Shown here: positions 5,378-63,200 of the stretch, one piece after another
Layout: each line of letters starts with the position of its first letter
How positions within the stretch are numbered: position 1 is the first letter of the stretch
From: Pyrenophora tritici-repentis
Taxonomy: Eukaryota; Ascomycota; Dothideomycetes; Pleosporales; Pleosporaceae
DNA: 64,000 nucleotides
Direction: 5' to 3'
Assembly: GCF_003171515.1 (NCBI RefSeq)
Contig: NC_089390.1
Location: 6,634,001 to 6,698,000, forward strand
Notes under the pieces: generated by a model
What the model saw: the letters and a program-made list of their open reading frames with translations, nothing else
What the model was told of the DNA's origin: nothing
Database searches by the model: none
Made by a program: the position numbers and the translations under genes

Positions 5378-7180
5378 ATGGTTGGTATGGCTGTCGGTGC
5401 CCCCAAGGGCAACAACGCTGTCCGCGATGACGCGCCCGAGTTTGAGAAGGTCATCTGGTACAGGGACCCCAACATGCGCAAGCTGTTTTGGCACTCCTGT
5501 GTCCTGTGTATCGCCTCTGCCACTACTGGTTACGATGGGTAGGTGACTACATCCTGACAGCGGTAGAAGATGCTGATGATTGTGTAGTATGATGATGAAC
5601 TCGTCGCAGCAAATGGCTCGGTGGGAGAACTACTTCGACAAGCCTACCGGGGGTCGCCTCGGTATCATGAACAACATGTACAACATTGGTTCCATTGTCA
5701 GCTTCTTCTTGGTCCCCTTCTACACCCAATGGCTCGGACGCAAGATTCCCATTGCAACTGGATGTCTAATTATGATCGCCGGTGCTCTCGTTTCGACCTT
5801 TTCTACCGAATGGAAACTTTACATGGTCGGTCGTTTTATCCTCGGTTTCGGTAACTCATTTGCACAAATGTGTTCGCCAATTTTGCTCACTGAGATCTGC
5901 CATCCGCAACATCGTGCCATGTTTACAGCCGTATACAATTGTCTCTGGAATTTGGGAGCTGTCTTTGTGGCATGGGTGGCATGGGGCACGTCTCAGGCCG
6001 ACAACGAGTGGTCTTGGAGGTCCATCACCCTCATGCAGGGACTGCCATCTTTTCTCCAGCTGATATTTATCTTCTGGGTCCCTGAAAGTGAGTAACCTCA
6101 AAACAATTGCCGAGCCTTTAAATTGATAAGAAATTTAGGTCCACGTTGGTTGATTTCCAAGGAACGCTACGAGGAGGCTTTGGAAACTCTCGCTTATTAC
6201 CATGCCGGTGGAGACCGAAACAACGTTACGGTTCAGTTCGAATTTACAGAGATGAGGGACACGATCCGTCTGGAAGTCGATGCCAACACCAACAGCAGCT
6301 ACATGGACTTCTTCAGGACCAAGGGTAATCGATGGCGATTGGCCATCCTCATCTCCCTCGGTATCATCTCGCAGTACTCTGGCAATGCGCTCTTCTCCAA
6401 CTACATCAACTTGGTCTACACCGGCGCCGGCATCACAAGTCAAGACCAGAAGATGGCTGTAAGATACCAGTCCGTATTTCTCATAGAACATTGCTAACAT
6501 TACGAATAGCTCTCTGGCGGTGAACGCCTGTTGTACCTCATCGTATCCGTCTACGCAGCCACCCTGATCGACAAAGTCGGTCGTCGTCCACTCTTCCTCG
6601 GCGCCACCATCGGCATGCTCGTCTCATTCGTGTGCTGGACCATCACCTGCGCCATCTACGAGAACTCCAACAACACAAACTCCTCTGCAGGTTACGCCCA
6701 GATCCCCTTTGTCTGGCTCTTCGGTGTCTGTTATGCCCTAGCCTGGTCTGGTCTTCTCGTCGCCTACGCCATTGAGATTCTACCATATGCTCTCCGTGCA
6801 AAGGGTCTCATGATCATGAACATCACCGTCCAGGCTGCCCTCGCCGTCGGCTCCCAGACCAACCCCATTGCATGGGAGAACCTGCCCAAGCACTGGAACT
6901 TGGCTCTCTTCTACACCCTCTGGGTCGCTGTCGAGCTCGTCTTTGTCTACTTTGTCTACCCTGAGACTATGGTACGTAAACATGCACAGAGTACACTTAT
7001 GTATCCGCTAACCTTTTTTGCTTCCAGGGACCCACACTCGAGGAGATCTCGCGTATCTTTGACGGCGATGATGCTGTTGCGCATGTCGATGTGCACGCTA
7101 TTGAGAAAGGTATCATCGAGGACCGCCTTGACAACTTTGGCGACGACAAGGGTCCGCGCGTGGAGAGGACTGAGGTTTAA
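5378..7180 (+). CDS. MFS sugar transporter (hexose/lactose permease-like)
   Basis: A 531-residue sugar porter assembled from five exons: 5378-5538, 5588-6087, 6139-6458, 6510-6971 and 7028-7180. All introns are GT..AG and 49-56 nt. Sugar-porter signatures are in order: YDGMMMNSSQQMARW after helix 1, QWLGRK in the loop between helices 2 and 3, GRFILGFG, PESPRWLIS at the exon 2/3 junction, then DKVGRRPLF and YPETMGPTLEEI at the end of helix 12. About twelve hydrophobic helices are visible, so it should sit in the plasma membrane and import a hexose or disaccharide. The substrate cannot be read from sequence. The ATG at 5378 is the first in frame and places a normal cytosolic N-terminus before helix 1. 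It is the only intact host gene between the two transposon regions. Confidence 0.93.
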
Positions 7181-7720
7181 GCTATATATGTATACCCTAG
7201 CTCTTATTCGCTGTCTGGTAGACTCCAAATCAGATATTTATTGTGGTAGATAAAAGACGCATTAATTTAGAGAGATCTATTCACGCCGAGTGATGATTCG
7301 AGTTGCGATCATCCTTTTTATGGAATCCATTTGGGCATAACACCCACTGTGTTGTAGCGTTTTCTACGCCCCAACAACACACTTGAACATTCTTTTGTGT
7401 CAGCCGTGCACCCAAGATTCATAGTATATCGCGTGTGTTATGGTACAACCCATGACTTTAGCTCTGAGCGAACGCTTACATGACAGAAGGAAGTAGCCGC
7501 CCCACTTATCCGTTACTTTTCTCGTGTACTCACTCACCGTCTTTGTTTCAACAGATAGTAAAAAAACACATTAGGAAACTGTTGACACGGCAAAGGTGTC
7601 GAATATCACTGTCGTTGTAACGAACAAAGTATATGATATTTGATTAGTAGTGAGCAAGAGCTGGGTGGAGAGATCTTCCTATGTACGGGTGCGAGCTGAG
7701 CGGGAAGCTTGGTCTAACTA
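7181..7720. other. 3' flank of the sugar transporter, no gene
   Basis: Short frames only, moderately AT-rich, containing the presumed 3' UTR and polyadenylation region of the transporter. Near 7721 a GC-rich ACGTGCCCGTGCGCGG preceded by TA could be the terminal repeat of the pogo-type element. No matching inverted copy was found at the other end. Confidence 0.5.
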
Positions 7721-7910
7721 ACGTGCCCGTGCGCGGAACGATCGGATTCGCGCAACGATCGCCGAACACCATATCCACTACTTCAAAATTAAGGCTATTA
7801 AGCCACGTACAATAGCTATTATTGTGAGACACTGCAGAAGAGTAGTAATTAGATGCTTGCGATTAATCTGTACTACTTATATTTACTCGGAAGCTTAACG
7901 TTACGGCCTC

Positions 7911-7927
7911 GTGAGGTGAACTTTGGT
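7911..7927. repeat. Target-site copy 1 (left of the LINE)
   Basis: GTGAGGTGAACTTTGGT, the genuine continuation of the pogo gene. On the minus strand it encodes the KFTS codons that lead into SRGRNVKLPSKYK. Identical to 13961-13977. Confidence 0.85.
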
Positions 7928-8226
7928 TGTTGATGTTGTTGATGTTGATTATGGTTTAACGCCCTATCTGTAACCTCCCATAGGGTATTCGGGCGGGTCC
8001 CGCCGTGGTCTTATAGTGCTGTCGCACTTGCCTCGTGGAACCTATTCCTAGGTGTTTTGTATCTAAGGGGAGTGATGTCCTGCCTATATACATGTTCGTG
8101 AAAAGGACTCCCGCCATTTGAAGCCGTTTTCCTACAATATTCTAGTATTTCGTGGCTTGCGCCTTTGATCGATGCAGTACAATAACTGCTTTTTAGAGAG
8201 AGAAACGAAAAAGTAACAAGAGGCAA
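7928..8226 (-). repeat. LINE 3' end, copy A (part of the full-length LINE)
   Basis: This 299-bp segment is nearly identical to copy B at 13978-14270. I see only three substitutions, all transitions, plus a length difference in the tail. On the minus strand it ends with two potential hairpins (7992-8004 and 7962-7985) followed by the repetitive ATCAAC tail. Confidence 0.92.
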
Positions 8227-8355
8227 TTTAAGATACAATGAAAGTTTTAAAAGAGAGCGTGTGGGTTGTGGCATCTATGCGGCGTTTTGCCGCGAATCCT
8301 ACACTGAATAATGCCAAGGAATTCAGCGGGTCTTTGTGAAATTCAAAAATAGAAA

Positions 8356-11300
8356 TCACTCGTTATAGAAGGAGTTCGTTACCTTAACGAAGGTCTCGAA
8401 CTCTTGTGGCTGGTCTATTAATTGCGCGAGGTACGCTAGGCCTTCCTGTCTTGTGCGAGGGGGCACGATGGGGCGTAGAGGCCACTTCTTGAAGTGTGTT
8501 GTGGCTCTCTTGCAGAACACTAGGTGTTCTGGCGTCTTGGGCCTGCCGCATAGGCATTTCGAGGTATCCTCGTGGTTGAATTTTCGGTGGTACCATTCAA
8601 AGTCGCCATGCGTTGAGCGTATCATAAGGACTTTCGCGAGTATCCTTCGGGGTAGCCATAGCGCTGCGGGCGTGCGCCTAGTATCGTATGGCAGCTGCCA
8701 TTGCGTGTACCATGCTGATAGCCTACTGCTCTTATCCTGCCACCAAGTGTCCCTTGTATGTTCGAGGAGGCGGCGGCCTACTGTTCGTATACCGGATCTT
8801 GTGGGGGAGGCGGCCATGCCGTATGGCTGGTGCGGGTCTTTGGCCTCGCTGTCAGCCAGCTGGTCGGCGAGCTCGTTTCCAACAATCTTCATGTGTCCCG
8901 GCGCCCACCGCGTTTTCACGTTGTAGGCCTCCATAGCTCCATGGATTTGGAGGAACGCCCATTGGGAGGAGGTAGGGGCGGTTCCGCGTATGCCCCATAT
9001 TACCGAAGTGCTGTCTATGCAAAGTACGATCTCCCTCTGGCTAGGCAGTGAGAGTTGTAGTGCGTGTTTGAGTCCTCTGCACGCGCCTATAGCCTCCGCA
9101 TCGAAGACGTGGCTAAGGGCATTTAGTGAGCCTTGTCCAGTCGCCACGGCGGCCTGGCCCTGGTATATAGCGTACCCGTAAGTGACCACCCTTGTACCGT
9201 TGATTTGTTGTTCAGACCCGTCTGAGAAGACAGTGATTGTCTCTTGTCCAAGAGACTCCCACCAGATGGTGAAATTCTGGGCAGCAATGTCCTTTCCTTG
9301 CCCTTGCGTTGGATCCTGCCTCGACCCGTCTGAAAAGTGAGGGCTGGCTAGGACGTTTCGGGGTGTGGCGGGTAGCAGTTGTGCTACGCGCTGAACCTTC
9401 GATCTTGGTATCCGTCGGTTGCCCGCTGCGCGTCCTCGTATGACTAGTGGCAGTGTAGTTCTATTAGTAAGTGGGTGCTTGTCGTCTATTGTGCGTAGGT
9501 GAACTGCAAAGCGGAGCTTGGCCTCCTCTAGCGCCACCTGTGCCGACGGCATCGCAGCTTCTCTTAGCAGTACTGCGTTTGGTGTTGTCCTCCACGCAGG
9601 GAGGATTGCCTTCGTGGCTGCTATTAGTGCCTGATCTATCGTGGTTAGGTGCCAGCCTACCCTAGTGCTGACCGTGGGTTTACGGGAAACCCTTGCAATT
9701 CGTGGGTTCTTCGTCCTGCCCTCGTACCATGTTTCGGCTCCGTATAGTAGTATGGGCAGGATACATGTTATGGCTGCCTTGCGTAGCGATCCTGCTGGAG
9801 GGCCGTGGGCTGTGTTGGCGAGGCTCCGGAGATGGTTCGCTACTTTCCTAGCTTGCGCCGCCCTTTCTGCGACGTGCTTCTTGAAAGTTAGTCCCCTATC
9901 AAACCACACCCCAAGCCAGCGCAGCGCTGTCTGGCTTCCCCCCTGCGCAGGGGCTATAGGGTGAATTGTTTGATCTTCCAATTGGATTGGCGGCGCATGT
10001 AGTCCTTTCTGGCGCGTGAGGTGGATCAGCTCCCGTTTCTCTGGTGCAAACGTGATCTTGTTCGCAGCTCCCCATTCATTGATAGATTTGAGGTCCTCTG
10101 CTAGCAGTGCGACGTTCTCGTCTAAAGAGTGGGAGACCCGGTATAGGTTGATGTCGTCGGCATACCCGAACCGGAGTTTTCGGTCCTGGTTGAGTAGTTC
10201 AGCTAGGTATAGGGTGTATAGGACCGGTGATAGCGGCGATCCCTGCGGGGTGCCGCAGGCCACTCGATGTACAGGTGTAGTGACATTGCCTAGGCGTACT
10301 CGCACCCTCCTTTCCGACAGGAAGTTCTGGATAAATTTCCGGAGTAGGGGTGGCCACCCTTGTTGCCGCATTCGGTGTAGTAGCCTGTTTTTCAGTAGCG
10401 CGTCAAACGCCCCTTGGACGTCTAACGTGAGCATAGAGACATGCTCGTGTCTTGACCAAGCCATCTCCACGTCGTGTGTGAATGCGGTCGCCAGGTCCAT
10501 CGCAGAGCGTTTTGGCAGCGCTCCACCGTGCTGTGGGCTTAGGATGTCAAAAGCCATAGCTGTGTGTGCTATGCGCCTTGCTATGATACGCTCGAGTCCC
10601 TTCCCTAGACAGGACGATAGGGCAATTGGTCTCATTGATCTGGGTGAGGACTTATCCTTCTTCCCGACTTTGGGTATCATGGCCACTTCTACCGTCTTCC
10701 AGGCGGCTGGGTAGTGGCCTTGTTCCATGCACGCCCGGTAGATGCCTAGCACTAGGTGTCTAATGTGTTCCCAGCATGCCTTTAGGAGTCGGACGGTCAC
10801 CTGATCGGGTCCTGGGGAGGTGCTAGATACTCCAATCACGTAGCGTTCAGTCTCCTCCATCGATATGTATGTGTCCCATGGTAGTGGCGTGGTTTGCGGG
10901 TCGTTGTCAAGAGGCGGTGGTTCTAGGAGGTCGTCCTCCGCCGAAAAACGGTCGAGGATTGCCTCTCTAAGTGCCTCAGCTTTCTCGAGTGGTGCTGTGA
11001 TTGTCCTACCTTCGATTACAAGTGGGGTGTCCCGTTGGTCGAATGATAGTTTATGCCAGCCTACTAGCTTGTATAGATCTTTGTCGTTATTACAGCCGTC
11101 TATGCGCTGCTGCCAGTACGTTCTCTTGGCTTTTCGTACCGTAGCTAGGAACGCACGGGTGGCTTCTGAGGGGGATTGGCCATAGTCCGACTTTTCCTGG
11201 ATATGCCGCTTATACGCCACTCTACAGTCCTCTGTCCACCATGGGGCGGAGTGGCCTTTTTCTCTATTTGGTGTTCCCGCCGCGTGCATTGCATCTCCTA

Positions 11301-12162
11301 TAGCTTGGGTGATTCTAGCTATGCTTGCGTCGATTACGTCCGCTGGGGCGCTATTGCTAATTGGCTGTACGCCTACTGTGTAGAGTTGAACTAGCCCGGC
11401 AAACCTATCTATGTTTCTCTCGTGGACCCGGTAGTGATGCTGTTCTAGCACCGCTCTCCCTCGGCTTGGAAGGACAGTCACTAGGGTGAAATGGTCTGAC
11501 CCTGTATACATATCTTCGCGGACTGTCGTTCTAGCGAAGGGTATATTTGAGAAGGATACGTCTAGCACGTGTCCCGCCCGATGTGTTGGGTTACCTGCCT
11601 CGCCGATGTAGGGTATGTCGTTCTGAGTGGCCCAGCGGGCGATCTCTGCCCCCCTATTGGCCGACGTGGAGCCGGGCTCAAAAAGTTCATGGCGGGCGTT
11701 TAAGTCACCCCCTATAAGGCAGTTACGGGGTGGCGTTAAAGCTGTGAGGTATTGAAATGTCGAGTCATTCTGTGGCTGCCTATAAACATTCAATATGCGG
11801 TAGCCGTTGGCCTCGATCCATAGCACATCCCGGCTGATGCGTGGGTGTATAAGAGTAGCCCTTATATTTGGGCTCTTACGGGTATAGGTGAGCACCCGTG
11901 GTCGGTCAGTTCCCCACGTTGTGGGGTTGTTCCAGCTTATCACTGGCGATATCATATGGAATCCTGGGTGTGTAGAGGTCCGGGTTCCAGTGAGAGTAAA
12001 GGGTTCTTGGATGCATACTATGTCTATGTCTGCTTCCCATGCACGTTCTAAGGCTGTAATGTGGCAAGGCGAGCTTCTGGCCACATTCACCCAGCATACC
12101 TGCATTTGTCTGTGTCGGTGTGGCGTGGTTTCGCCGGGTGAATTTGCGGGTTGTGCCCTCAT
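8356..12162 (-). CDS. LINE ORF2: endonuclease, reverse transcriptase, RNase H
   Basis: An uninterrupted 1,268-residue polyprotein. An AP-type endonuclease occupies about residues 20-230 (QEPF 52-55, GGDLNARH 151-158, SDHF 222-225). The reverse transcriptase lies at about 440-720 with YADDIN at about 666-671 and GTPQGSPLSP before it. RNase H follows at about 970-1105 (FSDGSEQ, CIDSTSV, WAPGHMKIVGNELAD). A Cys/His cluster, CLCGRPKTPEHLVFC, sits near residue 1200. These supply target nicking, target-primed cDNA synthesis and RNA removal. The start ATG overlaps the ORF1 stop as TAATG, suggesting termination-reinitiation. No inactivating change was seen, so it may still be functional in trans. Confidence 0.93.
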   Translation of the reverse strand: MRAQPANSPGETTPHRHRQMQVCWVNVARSSPCHITALERAWEADIDIVCIQEPFTLTGTRTSTHPGFHMISPVISWNNPTTWGTDRPRVLTYTRKSPNIRATLIHPRISRDVLWIEANGYRILNVYRQPQNDSTFQYLTALTPPRNCLIGGDLNARHELFEPGSTSANRGAEIARWATQNDIPYIGEAGNPTHRAGHVLDVSFSNIPFARTTVREDMYTGSDHFTLVTVLPSRGRAVLEQHHYRVHERNIDRFAGLVQLYTVGVQPISNSAPADVIDASIARITQAIGDAMHAAGTPNREKGHSAPWWTEDCRVAYKRHIQEKSDYGQSPSEATRAFLATVRKAKRTYWQQRIDGCNNDKDLYKLVGWHKLSFDQRDTPLVIEGRTITAPLEKAEALREAILDRFSAEDDLLEPPPLDNDPQTTPLPWDTYISMEETERYVIGVSSTSPGPDQVTVRLLKACWEHIRHLVLGIYRACMEQGHYPAAWKTVEVAMIPKVGKKDKSSPRSMRPIALSSCLGKGLERIIARRIAHTAMAFDILSPQHGGALPKRSAMDLATAFTHDVEMAWSRHEHVSMLTLDVQGAFDALLKNRLLHRMRQQGWPPLLRKFIQNFLSERRVRVRLGNVTTPVHRVACGTPQGSPLSPVLYTLYLAELLNQDRKLRFGYADDINLYRVSHSLDENVALLAEDLKSINEWGAANKITFAPEKRELIHLTRQKGLHAPPIQLEDQTIHPIAPAQGGSQTALRWLGVWFDRGLTFKKHVAERAAQARKVANHLRSLANTAHGPPAGSLRKAAITCILPILLYGAETWYEGRTKNPRIARVSRKPTVSTRVGWHLTTIDQALIAATKAILPAWRTTPNAVLLREAAMPSAQVALEEAKLRFAVHLRTIDDKHPLTNRTTLPLVIRGRAAGNRRIPRSKVQRVAQLLPATPRNVLASPHFSDGSRQDPTQGQGKDIAAQNFTIWWESLGQETITVFSDGSEQQINGTRVVTYGYAIYQGQAAVATGQGSLNALSHVFDAEAIGACRGLKHALQLSLPSQREIVLCIDSTSVIWGIRGTAPTSSQWAFLQIHGAMEAYNVKTRWAPGHMKIVGNELADQLADSEAKDPHQPYGMAASPTRSGIRTVGRRLLEHTRDTWWQDKSSRLSAWYTQWQLPYDTRRTPAALWLPRRILAKVLMIRSTHGDFEWYHRKFNHEDTSKCLCGRPKTPEHLVFCKRATTHFKKWPLRPIVPPRTRQEGLAYLAQLIDQPQEFETFVKVTNSFYNE

Positions 12163-13831
12163 TACGCACTAGATCCGAGGCTCATTTCAGTGTCAGCGTG
12201 CTCAGACGATGACGTATTAGGGTCTTGGTCAGCGGTGCTAGGCTGCACGCTTCTAGCAGACATTCGCGCTAGGTTGAGGTCTTGCGTAGTTGCAGCTGTT
12301 CTCTTAGACCTCCTAGTCCCTAGGGTGGTTGCGGGCTCTCTAACAGTGGCTGTGTTTAGGTTGTTTACGTCTTGTCGGCTTCTTTTACTTGCGTCCGTAG
12401 GTGTTCCCACAGGCTCAGTAGTATTAGCTATGTCGCCGTCCGTGATTTCAATGGAGGTTTCGACCGTGCTGCCTGTCTGTCTTCCTCTAGCTGGCTGCAT
12501 TGCCTCAGAAGCACGGTCACCCGCCTCCCTAATGACTTTTAGTTCCCCCTTTGTGGGTTGGATGAGTCGGCCGTTCGCCCTCGTTGGGGCTGCTGGGCAC
12601 TTGTCGTGGGTTGCTGGAAATGGGCCGTGGCAGTTGGCGCACTTTGGTGTGTCTTTGCATTGTTCTCCGTGTGGTCCCTGGTGAGTTGCCGTTGTTTTGC
12701 TGCATGTCGTGCAGCGGGCTGGCCTTGTGCAGCGGCTGGTTTTGCAGTACCCTAGGCAGCCTGGGTCGTGCAGCATTGCAGGTGAGTTCTTCTTTATCTC
12801 GTGCGCGTAGTCGCCCGTCCCAAATAGGCGAAACGATCGTACGGGTCTGGTGAAAGATATAATCCAGGTTGTCCTTCCCTCCGTGGGTCCATGTCTGGAG
12901 GGCCGGCAGCTCGCCGGTTCGATCCCTGTCTGGGACAGAGCTTCGCTGACTATATCGTCTATTGTGGTGGGTATACTTTCCCCTGTGATAGTGCGGTATG
13001 AGCTTTCTACGCCCTGGACTGCATAGTTCACCCATCGTTCAGGTAGTCTTGCGCTCTCGCCCTCTACCGCTCGGATCATGAGTTCGCGATTCTCCTGCCC
13101 CATAAGCAGGGCCTTGATTTTGTCGTTGCGGGGCGTAATCGCCCAGCCAGTCTTGATATGTTTTGCCGTAGGTATGTCGGAGGGGGTAATTTCCTTAATC
13201 GCCTTTACAATAGCCATGCGGGCCGCAAATGGTGATGCCCGTTGGAGCCGAGCCTCCGCTCCAACCGCTATAAGGATACGGTTGTCAGTGTTTAGAGGTC
13301 GCCTAGGAGTTTGAGCTAGCTGCTTTGGGGCAGCCGTGGCCGCTTTCGTCGTAGCGGCCCCCCTTGCTGGGGGGTTGGATTTTTCAGGGTCCTAGCTACG
13401 TCCGCCCAGGAGCGGTGCGTAGTGTCAGAGTCGCTCCCTGAGTTTGGGGGCGTGATTAGGGGCGTGATTAGGGAGGTGTTAATAGCCCTTAGCACCTTCT
13501 GTTGAAGGTCCTTAGCCACACGGGCTCCGTCTGGGTCGGTGTACTTCCCAAGGCATCTGTCGACAGCTGTCGCTAGATCCGTTATGATGGAGTGGTGGAG
13601 GTTTGTAGCTTTTTGGGCTGCCTGAATCCGCTGGCGGACCGCTTCAGAGACAGCTTGATTGTAGGAGGTGGGCGCAGTGCTACCGATAGAAGGTTCAGCA
13701 CGAGTATGTGCTCGCTGCCTCCTCTTGTTGCCGCGCAGGTCAGTATTAATAGGGCTCTCAGGCTCCTCTGATCGTGTATGGGGGGGTTGGGCACTCCGTG
13801 GCGCCCTCTCTGGAGTTTCTACATTAGCCAT
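12162..13831 (-). pseudogene. LINE ORF1 (gag-like, zinc knuckles) with an apparent frameshift
   Basis: The nucleic-acid-binding protein of the LINE. The first part starts at ATG 13831 and is polar and helix-rich. A second frame continues, without a start codon of its own, as APKQLAQTPRRPLNTDNR and then a conserved fold beginning ILIAVGAEARLQRASPF. It ends with Cys-rich knuckles (CTRPARCTTC, CKDTPKCANCHGP..HDKC) near 12770-12590. The two frames join if one base is added, or the ribosome slips by -1, in the homopolymers at 13358-13374, where a C6 run and a G6 run lie five bases apart. Joined length would be about 556 residues. The stop codon TAA (12164-12162) overlaps the ORF2 ATG. The frameshift may be a mutation, a sequencing error or programmed. 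Confidence 0.8.
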
Positions 13832-13960
13832 TCTAACCACCTCCGCGAGAGCAGAAAGCGGTTATTTAGCTGAGGTAGTTACAGGCCGCCGTGCCGTTAA
13901 AATGATGTAAAAATCGTATAATTTTATAAGGGTCCCAAATTCCTTAAAAGTTGGTGTTCG

Positions 13961-13977
13961 GTGAGGTGAACTTTGGT
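13961..13977. repeat. Target-site copy 2 (between LINE and copy B)
   Basis: An identical 17-bp copy of 7911-7927 lying exactly between the 5' end of the full-length LINE and the tail of the truncated copy B. Confidence 0.85.
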
Positions 13978-14270
13978 TGATGTTGATGTTGATTGTGGTT
14001 TAACGCCCTATCTGTAACCTCCCATAGGGTATTCGGGCGGGTCCCGCCGTGGTCTTATAGTGTTGTCGCACTTGCCTCGTGGAACCTATTCCTAGGTGTT
14101 TTGTATCTAAGGGGAGTGATGTCCTGCCTATATACATGTTCGTGAAAAGGACTCCCGCCATTTGAAGCCGTTTTCCTACAATATTCTAGTATTTCGTGGC
14201 TTGCGCCTTTGATCGATGCAGTACAGTAACTGCTTTTTAGAGAGAGAAACGAAAAAGTAACAAGAGGCAA
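13978..14270 (-). repeat. LINE 3' end, copy B (5'-truncated insertion or SINE-like)
   Basis: A 293-bp duplicate of the LINE 3' terminus in the same orientation, with its own ATCAAC-type tail. It is flanked by the 13-bp repeat GGTGAACTTTGGT at 13965-13977 and 14271-14283. The structure is that of a 5'-truncated LINE insertion into the pogo coding region. A SINE borrowing the LINE 3' end would look the same. Confidence 0.85.
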
Positions 14271-14283
14271 GGTGAACTTTGGT
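14271..14283. repeat. Target-site copy 3 (right of copy B)
   Basis: GGTGAACTTTGGT, 13 bp shared with copies 1 and 2, at the last uninterrupted pogo codons (PPKFT on the minus strand). Confidence 0.85.
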
Positions 14284-16009
14284 GGAGCAGCTAATGGCTC
14301 CTCACGAGGCTGAGCACCAGCTGGCTCATTCAAATCTCTTTTTGACGCTTGATACTTGATGAGGCTCCTTGCGAGGCTCTCTTTTTTTTTTCCCTTTTGG
14401 GATGATTGTAGAGCTTTAGCACGGTCTCTCTCATCCTTCTGGCGTTGGCGTTCAGCTGCCTTCTCGGCTCTCTCCTTCTCCCTTACCTCCTTGAGTCTCT
14501 CTCTCTCCACACGCTTCTGCTCGAGCTCAACTTGACGCTGCAGTTGAGCCTCCTCACGCTGCTTCTTGGCATGTGCTTTTTGGAGTTTCTCCTCTATCTC
14601 ATCTCGCTCCCGTACTGCTTCTCTAGCTCGAGCCTCACGCAACTTGCGAGACCAGAAGACAGAGCCACCGTGATACTCCTGGCGCTGCTGAAGGTCAAGG
14701 ACTTTACTCTTCTTCTTATGCTTCTGCTTGTGCTGAAGAGCCTCCTTTAAGCCCTCATTCTTATGCTTTAAAAGCTCATTCTGTACAGAGAGATGGTGAA
14801 CGCTTAAACGCAGCTTTTTAAACTCCGTTTGTTGGGTATCCTTCACAGCAGCTCGGACTAACTGATTAAGCTTTCTCCAATCATTGTTAGAGAGCCCTGA
14901 TAATGAGCTTCTCTCAGCTTCTGGTGTGCTGGTAAATCTACGAAGGATAACGTTAGCATCTATTGGCCAGATCCTAGTAGCTTCGAAGGCCTTCAATATA
15001 AGGTTATCCACGAAGGAGGATCTCCAGGCGCTCCAGAAGAGCGGGAAAAAGTCTCCTTTCTTAATTGGAACGAGGCCTTGAGCCTTATGTAGATAGTTGG
15101 TGAGCTCGTTAGAGTAGGCTTGAGAGAGTGGCTTGAACAGCACTACATCTAGCGGCTGGAGCGTATGAGTCGAATGGGGAGGAAGGATTATAAGGAAGAT
15201 CCTATGGCGATCGCAGTACTTAATAAACTCCATCGTGAGGTGAGATCCATGGCCATTAAGGATAAGCAATCTCTATCTACCTAATCGTTGCTTTGTACAG
15301 CGATCAAACACCTGCTCAAGCTAAGCTAGGCCTACGTTATCGTTTGACTAGCCTGTTAGAGATGATGAGATAAAGACCTTATGCTCTCCTACCTTAATAT
15401 CCTCTACCTAACTTGATCGTATAGCTCCTTTTGCAGCTGCGTAGATGATGGCTGGAGGTAATGAGCTCTCATCGGTGCAGCAGCAGGCCAGGAGTGTCAG
15501 AAACTCGCGTGATCTATCCTGGAGAGATGCTCTAACCTCTTTCTTATCCCATTAGCGTTTGCTAAAGATCCTCTTGCTTCTACCTATTAAGCCAATTAAG
15601 AAGCCCTTCTCATCCATATTGTATATATCTCGAGCCTCAAGGTGGTATTCAGTGATCTTTCGATGCAGTAGCTCGAAGTAGAGACGGTATTTCGACTCAG
15701 AATCAGCCAGGTGGCGCGTACGATCTATGGCGGTGGTCTACTTTGAGATAAGATGGATCTCGTGTCGGTTGATGAAGCGAGTAACCCAGCTCTCGCTGAG
15801 CTGCTGATGGGCTACTTCAGATGAGAAATTCTTAATCATCTGTAGTCCTGCTAAGTAGATACTGGATAGTGTATACAAGAGTGAGTAAAGAAGGGAGGGG
15901 GGTTAGTTTTGGGTAAGATGGTAATCTAGTTATATCATCATACCAAAAACGGCTTCCTACACCGATTCAAAGAATCCTACATGCCACAAATGCCCCCAAA
16001 CATAGCAGC

Positions 16010-54233: not shown

Positions 54234-57200
54234 ATGTGGAGCAGGTTAACGGGCAGTTCTGCTGCCTCCAACAGCTCCAAGGACGAAGAAAGTCGCCGCC
54301 GCCGCACTAGCGACTCCACGCGTTCGAAGCGCGATCGGGAGACGGGTGAGGCTAGGTCTGTAGTTTCCTCCACGTCGACCCGCAAGCCTCCTAGCACACG
54401 ACGCGAAACGGCGGGTTCATCGATAGTGTCGTTTGCGACAGCTTTTGATGAGATGCCGCGCTCACGGGCAACAACAAACACGAACCCAAACACAAACACG
54501 AACAGCGACCTCTACGACGACCCAGAGAACTATGACCGACGTCGCGACGACCGCCGAAGCAGCTACGCCGAATCCACCACCTCGACCATGCGCGGCGACG
54601 ACAAAGACCGAAAGAAGGCCAAGGACAGGAAGGTGGAGAAGCGACGCTCAACGACGCGCTCCGAACGCTCCGGCAGCCTGTCGCAGTCGAGCAGTTACAG
54701 GGGCGACACTGGTGACAGCCCCCGCTCGGGCACCCAACGCAGCTTCAGCGGCCAGACTGGCAGCGACGGCTTCTCGCAGTTTCCTGGCCAGGCAGGAGCG
54801 CCCATGATGTCTGGCGCTCTGCCAGTGGGAAGCAGCGTCCCACACCATACCGAAGGAATGTCGAGCCACGTGCAGAGCCAATTCCCTGGCCAGGACCCGG
54901 TGCACTATGCGTCTGGTGCTCTACCGGGTGGCCAGCCATATGGAGAGGCTTCCGACTACTATAGAGACCAAGGCCAGTCTGTGCATGACCAGCCTGGTAT
55001 TAGACCCCAGCAAGGTCCTCTTATAAACCACAATACTCCCCATCTCATCGCCGCCTCTGCGCATGCCAATCCTGTCCCCGACACTGGATCTGGCGCTGCA
55101 GCAGACTTCTACACCTCCAGCATGGACCCTCCTTCATCCAGGCCCCCACGACCCTCAAGCTCATCCATGCCTGGCGCCTTTGTCGACGACACGGCTGCGC
55201 CCCAGAAGCCACCGCGACCTGCATCCTCCTCGAGGCCTAACAAGTCTAGCACCTATGGCTCTGCTGCTTCCATGGCTGGCGGGGCCGCCTTTGGATATGC
55301 TATGGGCCACAGCTCTTCTAATCATGAACACTCTACCAGCTATAGCAGCACGTCGAATGTTCGCCCTTCTACCTCATACTCATCACACCCTAATAATACC
55401 CCGGCTGGTCCTACATCATCTTACAGCATGTACGGGCAAGGTCATAATGCTTCTAATACTGCTACAAACGGTAGCGCCCAATTCCCTCCCTACGTCGAGC
55501 CTCCTTATGGCGACGACGACGTGCCTCCACCTAAGCCACCTCGGCCAGGCAAGCCCGAGAAGCACTCGTCTGGCAGCGCTGCCGGGCTGTATGCTGCTGG
55601 TGCTGCCGGACTGGCGGCCTATGGCTTACATCACCATAACTCCCACTCCCACTCCCAGTCGCACTCACATTCCCATGTGCACAGTACGTCGCACAACCAC
55701 TCTTCGGCAAATGGAACCATACCTGGGCAACACAACGGTCTTACGCCAAGCCCGTACATCTCAGGCGGCATGGCCCAGCATCATCAACACACTGGCCCTG
55801 TCTCCAAATTTGTCGATTGGTGGAAGGACTACGAGGATGTGCAAAAGATGGAGGAGTACACAGAGTACATTGGAGTCTGCAGGGGCTGTTTTGACCCTCG
55901 TTCCTCTGTGCTTGATGCTCCGCGAAAGCACCACTACTACAAGAGGCGTTCCAACGAGCACATGCGTCTCTCGGGCGGCATCGAGAAACAATCTCGTTAC
56001 AACCTGAAAGAGAAGAAGTCTTACAATTCTATCTCCTCGGGTGAGGAGAGACGCAAGAAGAACTCCACCAGTGCGGCAGGATGGGTAGCTGCTGGCCTTG
56101 GGGGCATCGGCCTCGCAAAGGTTGGTAAGGCCGTGCTAACCGCGGGCCGTGACGATTTCGATGACACGTACAGCATCAAGTCTGGACGTTCTCGCGTATC
56201 GCGCCGCAGCCGCAGCCGATCAGCCGAACGCAAGAGCTATAGCTATGGCCAAGCTGCGATCCGTCATCGAAGTCGCTCTGCCGATCGCATGTCCCAAATG
56301 TCCGTCGGTATTACAAATGACAAGAAGGACCGCCGGGACCACAAGGTTCGTCGCCGACATTCGCGATCAAACTCCAGCTCCAGCTCTAACTCAGGGCACG
56401 GGAAGTCTGGCTTGATTGGTGCTGCTATCGGTGCAGGCCTGGCGAGTGCTGCTTTCGGAGCGGCCACGAAGAAGCAACCGAGCCGCTCCAAGTCCCCCAA
56501 GAGAGTCCAAGTGCTTCACCCCCGCCGAGATAGCAGTGATGATGAGCGCAAGAGGAGAAGGTCCCAGCAACTCCGACGCAAAGTATCACGCAGCTCGACT
56601 TCTGGCGCCTCCGTCATCGAGATTGGCGATACTCACGAATCTCAAGGTGGCTTCCTGGGAGGCTTCTTCGCCGCGCCTCCCCCGAAAGAGAAGCGCTCCA
56701 AGGAAAACAGCCTCAAGAAGAAGAAGAAGGGGTTCTTCAACTTCGGCAATGGCTCAGCGTCCTCGTCTGACTCTGAGATGGCGTTCGGCACTGGTTATGT
56801 CAGGAGGCGCAGGCGATCATCAGTCAAGAGACGCAACTCTGATGACCGCTTGAAGGCTTCGCTCATTGGGCTTGGCGCCACTGCAGCAGCTATCACCGCA
56901 GCCAAAGCTGGCAAGAGCAAACGCAACGAGGTGGTTACAGTCAAGGAGAACCGCCTCAGCCGCAAGGGTAGCGTTTCTTCTCGGCCTGGTTCGCGATTCG
57001 GCGACGATGAGTGGGAGGACCTGCCCGACGATGGTACCTCCGATTCCGCCAGCGATGGCGGTCTTGTGTACGGTGACTACACCTTGAAGAAGACCAAGAG
57101 CCAAGAGTCAATTGCGTCTGATGACTCGGGTACGAAGAAGTGGGGATGGCGTTGGGGTTTCGGCAATAAGAAGAGGAGGTCTTCCAACAATCTCTACGAC

Positions 57201-60200
57201 AACATTGCCAGTACCTCTCTCATCGGACCCACTGCAGCTGGTGCCGCAGGTGCATTGACAAGCGCGACAGTTGTAACTAGTACGAGCCATACACACCATG
57301 ACAGCGAGTCGAGCAGCGCCCAGACGTTGCAATCAGTCTATCCTGTCGCACCCATCGATCCTAATGCATCATTCGATGCACGACGCACAAGCTCAATCTC
57401 GACTTCGCAGCCTCTGGCGACCTCAGGGCCCGCTCCCATCAGCATCCAGCAGCCGCAGCCAATGCATCAGATTCCCGGAACTATCTACTCCACGCAAGCA
57501 CCCCCTCAAACAGGCTATACCGCCCCAGCAGGTCCACCTGTCTTCTCTACATCGCCTTTCCCACCTCCCTATCCAGCACAATCCCAAGTCCAGAACATCA
57601 TCATCCAAAGTCCTCAACACCCCACATTTCGCCGAGCTAATTCTTCGCCCATTCAAACAACATCTTGGAAACGAGATGCGGCTCTCGCTGGCCTTGCCGC
57701 AACTGCTGGTGCCGCAGCAGTCTCCGCACTCAAGCACGCTGATCGTCCGCCTAGCCGTCCGCCTAGCGCATCGAGCAATGTACGCTTCAATTTAACTCAG
57801 GAGCAAGCTGAAAAAGAGCTACGCGAGCGACGCAAGGAGCAAGATAGGCTCGAAGAAGAAGCCAACCGTCGCCGCGAGCAGCAGCGAAGAGAGGATGAGG
57901 CACGACGAGAGGAGGATGAACGCATCCGACGAGAACAGCAACGACGCGATGAAGAGGCACGTCGAGAAGACGCTCTGCGACGAGAAGAACTGACTCGACG
58001 AGAAGAGGCGTTGCGACGTGAAGAGCTGGCACGGCGAGAAGAAGCTGTCCGACGGGAGGAAGAAGAGCGTCTGCGAATCGAGCAGCAACTTCGAGAGGAG
58101 GAGGCCCGCAAGGTTGAAGAAGACCGTCGTCTAACTCTCCTTCGCCTCGAAGACACGGCACGCGAGGAAGACGAGCGACGACGCCGTGAACTGCAACGTC
58201 AACAAGAAGAGGCACGCAAGTTTATGGAGATCGAACGCCTAGCTAAGCTTGAACAAGAGCGTCGTCGTGAACAGAATGACTTACATGGGCGTGCAGCTCG
58301 AGAAGCCGAAGAGCGGGAGCGTCAAAGGCGCGCGGAACATCTGGCACACCTGGAGCACCAGCGTCAGCTTGCCATTGAGGCATCTGAGGCGGAGCGAAAG
58401 CGGAGAGAACGTCGCGAATCTCAGCAACAAGAGGCTGAGCTCGCCGAGGCCGCGAGGCGCGAGGCCGAGATCCAAGAGGACCTGGAGCGTCGACGCCGGG
58501 AACATGAAGCACAGGAGTATTCCAGCAGATACGAAAGCGACCGAGCACGGAAGCTTGAATCACAACCCACTGGAAGCTCAATCGCCTCGACTGCCACCGT
58601 CGTGCAGCGTAAGGAGCAGGAATTGCAGGAGCGCGAACGGGAGGTCTTCCAACCAGACACCAAGAAGTCTTCTATCGCTGGTGCTGTAGCTGCCGGTGCC
58701 GCTGCTGCTATCGCGACAGCAGCCATCTCTTCCTACAAAGACAAGGAGAAGGAGAGGAAAGAGAAGGAAAAGGAGAAGGAGCGTGAACGGAAGCGCGAGA
58801 AAGAACGTGAGCGTGGCTGGAAGCGCGAATCGTCATCTTCAAAGAGTAGTTCCTCAAAGGCCAGCTCTTCCAAGACGAGCTCTTCAAAGACAAGCGGATC
58901 CAAGTCTGCAAAGAAGCTCGAGGCGGCCAATGTGAAGACCATCGAGCCCAGCAAGGTCGAACAAGACATATTCGATGACGACATTTTCAACCCCGACATG
59001 TTCAAGGAACCACCTCGCGAGGCTGTAAATGAAGTATTACGCGACTGGGAGGATAGATACTCCGCAAAGCCAATCTCTCAGGCCGAGTTCTTTGCACCAG
59101 CCGAACTACTACACAACGACAACTTGCCCAAAGTTCACGCTCCGAATCCCAACGAGGGAGCTCCGGACCTACACACCTACTATGCGCACGAAGACTACCC
59201 TACGAGCCAGCCCATAGTCCCGCCATATCCACCTTCATATGCCTTCACTGCTACAAAAGACGGTCGGTCTGCCAGACAACAACCGCCCCCTGTACCGACA
59301 TTGAACCTCATCATGCCCACGCCTCCAGGTAGCCGTGCGCCATCTGTGCGCAGTGCGTCTGTCTCCCCAGCACCACCTATTCAGCGTATCCGAGAGACTG
59401 AAGAAGAGCCTGACTTCAATCGCGCCAGGTCTCGGGTGAGCTGGGGTGAGAACCAGTTTCATCACTTCGATGTGCCAACTCCTGAGTCTTATCGCGAACA
59501 ATTTGTCTCGGATGGCGATCTCAGGCGTGCAGAGTCCAATTACTCGCCTGACGTAGCCACTATCCAACGTGAACCACCCAAGTCCGAACAAGCACCACCT
59601 ACGTACATGCCTTACCCCCCGGAGGCGCCTACAGCTCCTCAGCCAAAGGAAATCGCCCCGAGCACGCAGTACATCCGCGAAGAGGATGATTCGACATGGG
59701 ACAGTGTCGCAGGTGCCGCATCAAAGAAGAGCAGCAAGAAGGAGAAGAGGAAGCAGGAGAAGGCCGCCGCCGCAGCGGCCACTGCAGCAGCAGCTACTGC
59801 AGCCGCGGCTTTGACCTCTGCAGCTGTTCTTTCGCGAGAGAAGCCTGATGAAGCTGACTACAGGCATGGTGATCCTATTACTCCCTCTACTCTTAGCAAC
59901 CCGTTCTCCGACACCAACAAGGCGCCTTCCACAATTGCCGCATCAACCATTTCTGCCGCGCCATCAACCAACAGTGTCCAGACTGCCTACTCTGCTGCAC
60001 CATCGTCTAGCAGTGTCCAAACTGCCTACTACCAGCCTGAGCCTGCGCGCTCAGTAAGCAGCGTGCAGACGGCATATTATCAGCCTGGACCAGTACACGA
60101 GATGTGGAGGATACCAGAGCAAAGCGCAGTCGGACCTGGCTTTATTGAAGGCGAGCTTGAGGAGGATTTGCCAATGCACATCCCCGGTAGCTTTGATGAC

Positions 60201-63200
60201 GAGCCAATATCTGAGCTGCCTGCTGAAGAGGCCTCAGCTTCTTCAGCGGCGAAGGAGCAGAAGGGTAAGGAGAAGGCAAAGGGTACTAACGAGACTGTAG
60301 TCACACGACGGGGCGAGCCGGAACCTGCCGTAGTTTCAGAGAGGGGCAAGGAGAAGAGCAGGGAGTCTGAGTCCGAGCTCAAGGTCAGCAAGAGGGAGAA
60401 AAAGGACAAGAAGAAGAAGAAGTCGTCATCCTCCAAGTCAAAGCGAGCTAGTGTGGATACCTGGGAGATGAGCGACATCAGCCCACCTCACAGCCCCATC
60501 ATCGAGCGCGATCCCCGAGACATTGAGCCATCACGAGCTATCGAACGTGACCCCAGGGACATTGAACCATCGCGATCCATCGAACGCGACCCGAGAGACA
60601 TTGAACCGTCGCGGTCCATCGAACGCGATCCCAGGGATATCGAACTACCTCGACCGAGTGAGCCTTCACGAAATGGTGAGCCGTCGCGCTTTGCCGAACT
60701 TCAACGCTCTCCTGAGTCCACTCGCTGGTCTGATTCGCAGCGCTCCCCGGAGTCATCTCGCTATTCCGATATGCAACGATCTCCTGAATCAACTCGTTAC
60801 TCCGACTCTCAGCGCTCCCCCGAATCGACTCGTTCCACCGACGCATCTCGTTCTACTCAACCTTCCCGCTCTGCAGAACCCACTCGTGTCCCAGATCCTT
60901 CACGATACGCCGAGCCAAGCCGGTCTTCTGAGCCTTCGCGATCTGTAGATCAAGCTCGGGACCACACCCCGGCAAGAAGCACATCACAAGACAAGGAAAG
61001 CAGTGCTATTAAGGCCGTCACTGCCGCCATGACAGGTGGATTTGCTGCACTAATGGGCACCACGATGAGCCAGGACCAAGCCAGGATGACTTCTGACCTC
61101 GAACGTGCTAGACAGAATCTGGCGTCTGTAGAGAAGCCTGCCCCTCCCCCAGCCAATGGCTCTCGCGCACTCAAAGAGCACGAGAAGAACGTGACAATCC
61201 CTAGCTATGCATTCGAGGGTATTGAGGAGTTGGCCGACAAGACACCTAGACCGAAGAACCAGAAGAGGCATAGCAGTGGCAAATGGTCTCCAACGATTGG
61301 ATCTCCCCTCAGGACCGAGGTGAAATCCGATGACTACATGAACGCTCGTACCACTCGTTCGCAATCTGATGCTTCCACCTATCAGCCATTCGTCGAAGCC
61401 CCGAAGGTGCCTACTGCGTCTCCGTTCACGACCGTTCCTCCGTTCACAACCTCCGAGCTTACCGCCTCTCGCAGCATAGCCGATTCTGGCTATTACGCTC
61501 CTGACGACATTGCACGCAAGGATGCCTCTGAGAAAGACTCGGATGGATCTCACTCAGCAGGCTCAGACGAAAGGACCCGACCACGCGATTCAAACACCCG
61601 CGCCAAAGACGACTCCTATGTCCGAAGCAAATCCGACGACGAGCAGGACTACATTATGCGCAGCATTGCTGATGACGACGACGTAGGCTCAATCGCTTCC
61701 TTGAGCTTCAAATACGACGACCCTGACCGCGAGGAGCGACGTCGCAGACGCCGAGAAGCCAGATCTGAGACCCGTGAGAAGAGCCATGACCGCGGTTATG
61801 GCGAAGAGGGCGGCGAACGTAGGCGAAGACATCGTCGCCATGAAGACGAGGACGCTGGGGATGACTGGGACACGCGATCTACATACTCTGAAGCTCGCTC
61901 TGACGCTAACGGTGAGCGCCGGCGTAAACACAGAAGACGAGAGAGCGAGAGGGATGCTTCGCCGTCAGAGAAGAAGCACAGGTCCCGCTCATCTGCAGCA
62001 TCTGAACATGGTGATGGCTATGACGAGCACAAGCATTCTCGGAGACGTTCGAAGCACGATATTGACGACAACAAGTCCGTAGTATCCTCAATCGCAGGTT
62101 ACGACGAGGAGCGCAGTCCAAAGAAAGAGAAGGAGAGGGAGAAGCGACCAAGTGGTTTGCTGGGTCTCTTCAGCAGCAAGTCAAGGGAAAACCTGGCTGA
62201 GGCAGCCAGCAAGTCATCGAAATCGAGGGACGACGACGATGAGGAACGCAAACATCGTAGACGGAAGCATCGGTCAGATCGCGCTTCTACGTACGGCTCA
62301 GACGATGATGATATGCGCTCCACGATCTCTAGCAGTAGTCGACGCGAGAAGAGGAGTAGTCGCAGTCGCAGTGAAAGAGGAGATGGAGACAGGGAGGATG
62401 CGTATGATGACAAGGTACATCGCTCTTCCTATGTGCGATAGCATCGTTGTTCGCAATGTAATTAGAATGAATGTTGATGTTGTGTATTAGGATCGTTCAA
62501 ACGCTCGAACCCCGCCCTCGCATGCCGATGAACAACTAGAACAAGACCAACCGTCTTTTTTAGACGATCGGGCAGTGGCCGCAGCCGCTCCAAGTCCACT
62601 GCCCGCAAGTGAGCCTGTCCTTGAGGCTCAAAAGGGTAGTGGCATCATCCCGGGAGGTCGGCCCGAATCCCCGCTTACGACATCCGACAACACCCGCGTC
62701 ACCGCCTCCGCTGAGGCCTCCGCTGACGCTGACCGGCCCAAGACACCTGAGTTGTCTTTCGAAGACAGCCGCGCGCTACTGACTCGTCTCACAGGTCTAC
62801 AGCCTTGGCTGTTAGAAGCCTTCCCGGATGAGCTTCCACCTCTACCGTTGTCACGGCCAAGCTCTCCAACCCGATCACCCGAATTCAGTCGCCCTATAGC
62901 AGACTTGGCCAAAAGAAGACTGTCATCCACTGCTGTCCCCATTCGCTTTCGAAAACCCAGTGGTCCCTCTGTCAGCCAGCGCGACTTCTCCGGCGAGGCT
63001 CCTCAAGTGACAAGCCCTATTCCCGTCCCATCACCGACACGTGCTCATCGGCATGCAAAGTCTCACTCCACCGAATTCAAGTCGTCGCGTGAGTTTCGAC
63101 CATTGTATCTTGTGGAACGCAACCGCAAGTCCGGAGATTTTCAGGAAGCGCTACCGCCTCTACCACCCAGCACCACTCCATCAGTGGCATCGGGCACTGA

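Follow-up and report, generated by a model that had tools for sequence, protein, structure and literature searches.

The window analysed here, a stretch of 64,000 nucleotides of the Pyrenophora tritici-repentis genome, carries on its minus strand the remains of a pogo-type transposase gene (DDE_1, 14284..15761) interrupted by two copies of a LINE. Along that strand, the pogo coding sequence is followed in turn by target, 293-bp LINE 3' end, target, 6.0-kb LINE, target and pogo remainder. The short copy (13978..14270, 293 bp) is 5'-truncated and corresponds to element positions 5735-6027. The full-length copy occupies 7928..13963 (the 5' end near 13963 is approximate), starts with CAC followed by CGAACACC, and ends in an ATCAAC-type 3' tail (7928-7950). 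The target is present on the 3' side of the full-length LINE (copy 1, 7914..7927), inside the joint of the two LINE copies (copy 2, 13964..13977) and on the 5' side of the short LINE (copy 3, 14271..14283). The last pogo codons, the stop codon and the 3' terminal repeat are found at 7719..7913, ending in ...CACGTTA as other pogo copies do. All of these features lie on the minus strand. On the plus strand of the window, an open frame spans as many as 2735 codons (54234-62441).

An earlier note on this DNA had placed the 13-bp sequence GGTGAACTTTGGT at 7915-7927, 13965-13977 and 14271-14283, with LINE segments of 293 bp and 6.0 kb in between, and the sequence confirmed this. Shuffles led us to expect 0.09 occurrences, and no further copy was found elsewhere in the window with one mismatch allowed. 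It was also correct that the pogo frame stops at copy 3 and resumes at copy 1: reading from the letters, the frame continues over the insertions as ...AAPPKFT, then SRGRNVKLPSKYK, then the stop. However, this gene was already broken, with six in-frame stops in its own frame (a seventh apparent stop was an alignment-gap artefact and was excluded). Aligned over 1476 bases, the remains share 87% DNA identity with a pogo gene whose frame is open. The stops are RIP-like, five of the six being TGG to TAG changes relative to the open relative. RIP-like decay was seen along 14284-15761, where, in comparison with an open relative, TpA results from 47 of the 96 C>T and G>A changes.

ORF2 of the full-length LINE (8356..12168, minus strand, 1270 open codons) encodes an APE-type endonuclease, a reverse transcriptase and an RNase H (Exo_endo_phos_2, 7e-12; RVT_1, 1.5e-24; RNase_H, 6e-6), and its reverse transcriptase stretch matches chains of LINE-1 ORF2 and R2. 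Endonuclease and reverse transcriptase in ORF2 identify the element as a non-LTR retrotransposon, and the hallmarks of LINEs (5' truncations, a simple 3' tail, target-site duplication) are present; at two LINE places, C8:2267993 and C10:4078881, there was no matching duplication. The element does not belong to the restriction-like-endonuclease class (R2, CRE, MoTeR, FoTeR), as ORF2 carries the APE-type domain. The ORF1 region (12162..13861, minus strand) is split in the window into frames 13316-13861 and 12162-13391 by a one-base frame shift, and ORF1 was open for 566 codons in two (L039, L045) of the eight long copies compared. The target gene (L040) encodes DDE_1 (1.5e-27) and HTH_Tnp_Tc5 (6.8e-7) domains and is of the pogo/Fot-like type. 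Pogo copies, which were delimited on the 3' side only, share the 3' end ...CGTTA (CACGTTA in subtypes A and C), followed by differing flanks.

The 40.9-Mb assembly containing the window was searched for further copies. The 20-base word ACAGATAGGGCGTTAAACCA, located just before the tail, identified 64 LINE 3' ends, all of them exact matches although three mismatches were allowed; 28 LINE 5' ends were found. The LINE family looks young, judging from the identity of all 64 words. Since the 3' ends agree over these 20 bases and the window pogo shows RIP-like decay, the LINE probably arrived after this pogo copy had decayed.

Thirty-six of the 64 3' ends were located at the homologous base of pogo transposase genes, 15 lay elsewhere, one was anomalous and 12 were not placed. 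The pogo insertions lie 17-21 codons ahead of the pogo stop, in pogo sense. The 3' flank was read for 45 of the 64 (44 genome ends and the window's full copy). Sixteen of these flanks pass directly into the pogo end, all from the homologous base, and continue with A[C/T]C, a subtype-specific stretch and then the codons of RGRNVNLP or variants of it. In 14 flanks a target copy is followed by further LINE sequence (13 with the pogo target, including the window, and one at a site on C7), 12 represent single insertions outside pogo, and two belong to a pair of C7-cluster copies whose tails point towards one another. Among the 19 unread ends, seven adjoin a pogo end by position. The anomalous end, C8:2267993 (L005, C8:2267317-2268200), has a pogo 5' flank, but its 3' end is separated from a pogo end by about 170 bp of other DNA.

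The 15 ends outside pogo comprise the 12 single insertions and three at the repeatedly hit C7 site. Distantly pogo-like sequences (33-34% identity) occur about 0.5-0.8 kb away from two of the 12 single insertions, C6:2161409 and C2:770406, neither of which is at the target site. The element thus shares with target-specific non-LTR retrotransposons the use of the same position in a repeated target, but its specificity is not strict. The C7 region (C7:1633-1640k; L019, L020) contains several LINE copies at a second repeatedly hit site, ACCCAACTCGAATG, outside recognised pogo genes; the cluster includes an inverted, tail-to-tail LINE pair whose target copies are mutually inverted. At C2:408-414k (L045, L047) two LINE copies in inverted orientation are broken at the identical element position, 1621. 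They flank a segment of about 6.4 kb, both ends of which begin with CAGGGCTCCC.

Viewed from the pogo side, a 23-base pogo-end motif was found at 110 places (three with the reversed control). Among the 100 listed of these 110 pogo ends, 24 had a LINE on the same strand within 300 bp upstream (0.02 expected), and in 23 of the 24 the nearest copy was 32-47 bp away. At three stacked places, where several LINE copies follow one another, the nearest copies were at 32-35 bp. No LINE was detected on the other strand or downstream of the 100 listed ends. Selection alone might be invoked for such a distribution: insertions would occur anywhere, and those near the end of pogo would do little harm and mostly survive. 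In its favour, the catalytic part is left untouched by insertion at this site, and one subtype B gene has an open frame of 604 codons that reaches the LINE. Selection, however, cannot choose one base and one strand, as in the 24 same-strand upstream copies versus none on the other strand or downstream among the 100 listed ends, and we consider this explanation exceedingly unlikely.

Six pogo subtypes (A-E and x, labels of this analysis) were hit, and in all six the LINE runs in pogo sense, ends in a tail of ATCAAC units and is flanked by a duplication of 13-14 bp. Occupancy differed between subtypes. Intact empty sites of subtype A numbered 26 exact matches, whereas a search of the genome for subtype B, with up to three mismatches allowed, yielded no intact site; the exact subtype B motif occurred at four places among the listed pogo ends, all occupied by the LINE. 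The consensus of the nick site across subtypes is CT[C/G]C^A[C/T]C, the exception being one copy with CTCT. Because about 20,000 chance occurrences of such a 7-mer are expected, more than the local motif must be read. Between the nick and the RGRNVNLP codons there are 16 bases in subtypes A and C but 28 in B and E, which makes site choice by a fixed downstream ruler unlikely.

LINE-bearing pogo copies lie in differing genomic flanks beyond the 3' repeat (L032, L033, L039), as would be seen if one or a few LINE insertions had been copied around as passengers of moving pogo elements. Passengers would, however, share one junction, while the outermost 5' junctions differed, in element start or in the junction itself, at 15 of 15 readable pogo places. 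These insertions are therefore independent. Moreover, at least six pogo subtypes carry the LINE, so that passenger spread is very improbable. The earlier note had suggested a target preference from the two insertions in the window; the preference was substantiated, but it is stronger and of another kind, the same base being used in many pogo genes, mostly by single hits.

The length of the duplication was re-evaluated by comparing 5' ends. All 12 readable full-length 5' ends have CAC before CGAACACC, at times with additional AC repeats. The target bases at this position, which could be compared for 11 of the 12, are different in eight cases (in T1, one of the stacks listed below, by a single base) and are also CAC in three, including the window. 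Since the targets differ in eight of 12, CAC probably belongs to the LINE, and the 17-bp second duplication proposed before (target copy 1 taken from 7911) is most simply explained, and probably, as 14 bp plus CAC. For the first duplication, a length of 13-15 bp is preferred to the 13 bp given originally, because the adjoining bases fit target and LINE alike. On this basis, duplications at pogo sites are about 13-14 bp long.

Stacked copies were found at ten places, T1 to T10 (in this order C1:38-45k, C1:1720-1730k, C1:2569-2574k, C1:5960-5968k, the window, C1:9824-9835k, C2:414-424k, C2:2208-2210k, C7:1633-1640k and C3:1063k), nine of them at pogo sites. In eight cases out of 28, a full-length 5' end immediately follows another copy (0.0015 such cases expected by chance). 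According to the earlier note, random targets and a lack of tandems among other copies would have spoken against its reading; instead, tandems were frequent and targets non-random. As the pattern recurs at ten places with differing truncations, an assembly artefact is unlikely to be the source of the stacks, all of which come from one assembly of one isolate.

Within the stacks the copies are arranged head to tail in the same orientation, as would also result from template jumping or another form of tandem synthesis in a single event, an alternative raised in the earlier note. Against this, a target copy of 13-14 bp was present in 14 of 14 tandem joints. Stack partners differed on average by 2.4 per 262 bases (11 pairs), compared with 1.9 in random pairs (820); this comparison used 41 of the 45 rows, leaving out three copies of 54-58 bp and C2:770406. 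In ten of the 11 stack pairs both partners had closer relatives elsewhere, as did one partner in the eleventh. Synthesis of the stacks in one event is thus extremely improbable. The two copies in the window, with two differences in 262 bases, are each identical in this region to some copy elsewhere. They derive from different source variants, in agreement with the original view of two separate insertions at one base. Local duplication was likewise considered as the origin of the stacks, and was ruled out by the target copies in the joints and by the closer relatives of the partners elsewhere.

Hand counts gave 27 pogo places with about 40 hits (18 single, five double and four triple). Under a uniform Poisson distribution of the 40 hand-counted hits over 112 sites, 0.65 places with three or more hits are expected. 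Outside subtype B, which alone took 11 hits on five places, two triple-hit places were observed versus 0.29 expected. Repeated targeting accounts for most of the stacking, and there may be some extra attraction, of modest size. The earlier note had proposed, as one possibility, that the RNA tail of the second copy pairs with the ATCAAC tail left by the first, which would thereby supply the new site. The modest excess of triple hits would be compatible with this, and the re-used nick adjoins the old tail if newcomers arrive on the 3' side. On the other hand, 18 pogo places have a single hit, with no tail there beforehand: first hits pick the same base without an earlier tail, which makes tail pairing superfluous as the cause of re-use. 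The order of arrival, for which the evidence is weak, also points away from the tail. At the 5' junctions of T1, T2 and T7 there is a one-base extra identical to the neighbour's next base, and no extra base was found in seven solitary truncated copies with matching duplication (the count left out C8:2267993 and C10:4078881, both without one). These extras would be consistent with insertion of newcomers 5' of older copies; T8 has two extra bases, which fit neither insertion order. On balance, a contribution of tail pairing is improbable.

Some stacks showed peculiarities. At C1:37.7-38.9k (L031), two adjacent 611-bp copies have an identical truncation point and differ at about 2% of positions, which may be due to chance re-use, gene conversion or an old duplication; the T1 pair with the common truncation point may therefore not represent two independent events. 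In three stacks (L035, L037, L050) the last copy is a tiny LINE fragment of 54-58 bp, and the truncation points of these fragments nearly coincide (element positions 5964-5969).

Taken together, the element is very probably an APE-type non-LTR retrotransposon with a strong, though not absolute, preference for one base in pogo transposase genes, and the stacks are repeated hits on a regenerated target. We infer a first nick by the endonuclease at GGT^GG, on the strand complementary to pogo sense; the freed end would then prime copying of the RNA from its tail by target-primed reverse transcription, and the second strand would be cut 13-14 bp away. The resulting duplication would restore the target beside the new copy, so that later copies can strike the same base again and stacks build up. 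The predicted outcome is a head-to-tail array with a single target copy per joint. The window represents one two-hit instance of targeting that occurs throughout the genome, with one mobile element parasitising another.

The Tad1-like and I-superfamily LINEs of Ascomycota are likely relatives of this LINE. The accessible part of PMC3538342 describes Tad1-like elements and inefficient RIP in P. tritici-repentis and, together with fungal relatives of the LINE, among them some of 60-72% identity, suggests placement in the Tad1 clade; the corresponding part of another paper on this species, PMC9594970, does not mention Tad1 or a non-LTR element. I-1_CH and I-2_CH of Cochliobolus heterostrophus have, as far as PMC4112212 could be consulted, two ORFs with APE, RT and RNase H as in our LINE, but end in AAT repeats instead of ATCAAC. 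A target preference is not described for these LINEs in the accessible parts of PMC3538342 and PMC4112212.

Target-specific LINEs are few; in the part of PMC4640811 available, their targets include transposons, and the majority of the reported families are assigned to the early-branched, Tx1 or R1 groups. A wider reading, which we offer tentatively and hold to be possible rather than probable, is that the LINE is a specialised hyperparasite using a DNA transposon family as genomic safe harbour. It would read more than the local motif (flanks, or tethering to pogo chromatin or transposase), with one subtype filled and stacks growing on the 5' side, and would probably be a Tad1-clade element whose target choice arose outside the three groups of PMC4640811, as given in that part. 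The genome offers a compact system for studying how an APE-type endonuclease gains a target, with about 110 natural pogo ends that differ in how readily they are hit (no intact site found in subtype B versus 26 exact empty sites in subtype A) and off-target insertions as controls. It also illustrates how target duplication converts target choice into tandem stacks.

Among insect LINEs, R1 and R2 are specific for rDNA, and TRAS1 and SART1 for telomeric repeats. They insert by target priming, as proposed for the LINE described here, and like it at one position of a repeated target; their targets are rRNA genes or telomere repeats whereas here it is a transposon gene, and the R2 endonuclease is of another type. 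MoTeR is reportedly a target-specific LINE of a plant-associated fungus, MoTeR1 having a restriction-enzyme-like endonuclease and residing in telomeres. It differs from our element, with its APE-type endonuclease and pogo target, in both respects. FoTeR (PMC12857005, accessible part) is likewise target-specific and from a plant-associated fungus, but is telomeric and has a restriction-enzyme-like endonuclease in place of the APE type. Target-specific insect LINEs are treated in the parts of PMC4640811 and PMC5035012 that were available.

No report of a fungal LINE targeting pogo or another fungal DNA transposon was found among the papers listed from the open-licence PMC literature, which is no proof of absence. 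A LINE that targets a DNA transposon nevertheless has a precedent in Tx1L of Xenopus laevis, which is said to insert in the DNA transposon Tx1D and whose endonuclease is called target-specific in the titles of cited papers. Both elements are of the APE type and both target a DNA transposon. Tx1L reportedly belongs to another clade and host, and in the present case the target is the end of the pogo transposase gene, the specificity is partial and the hits are stacked.
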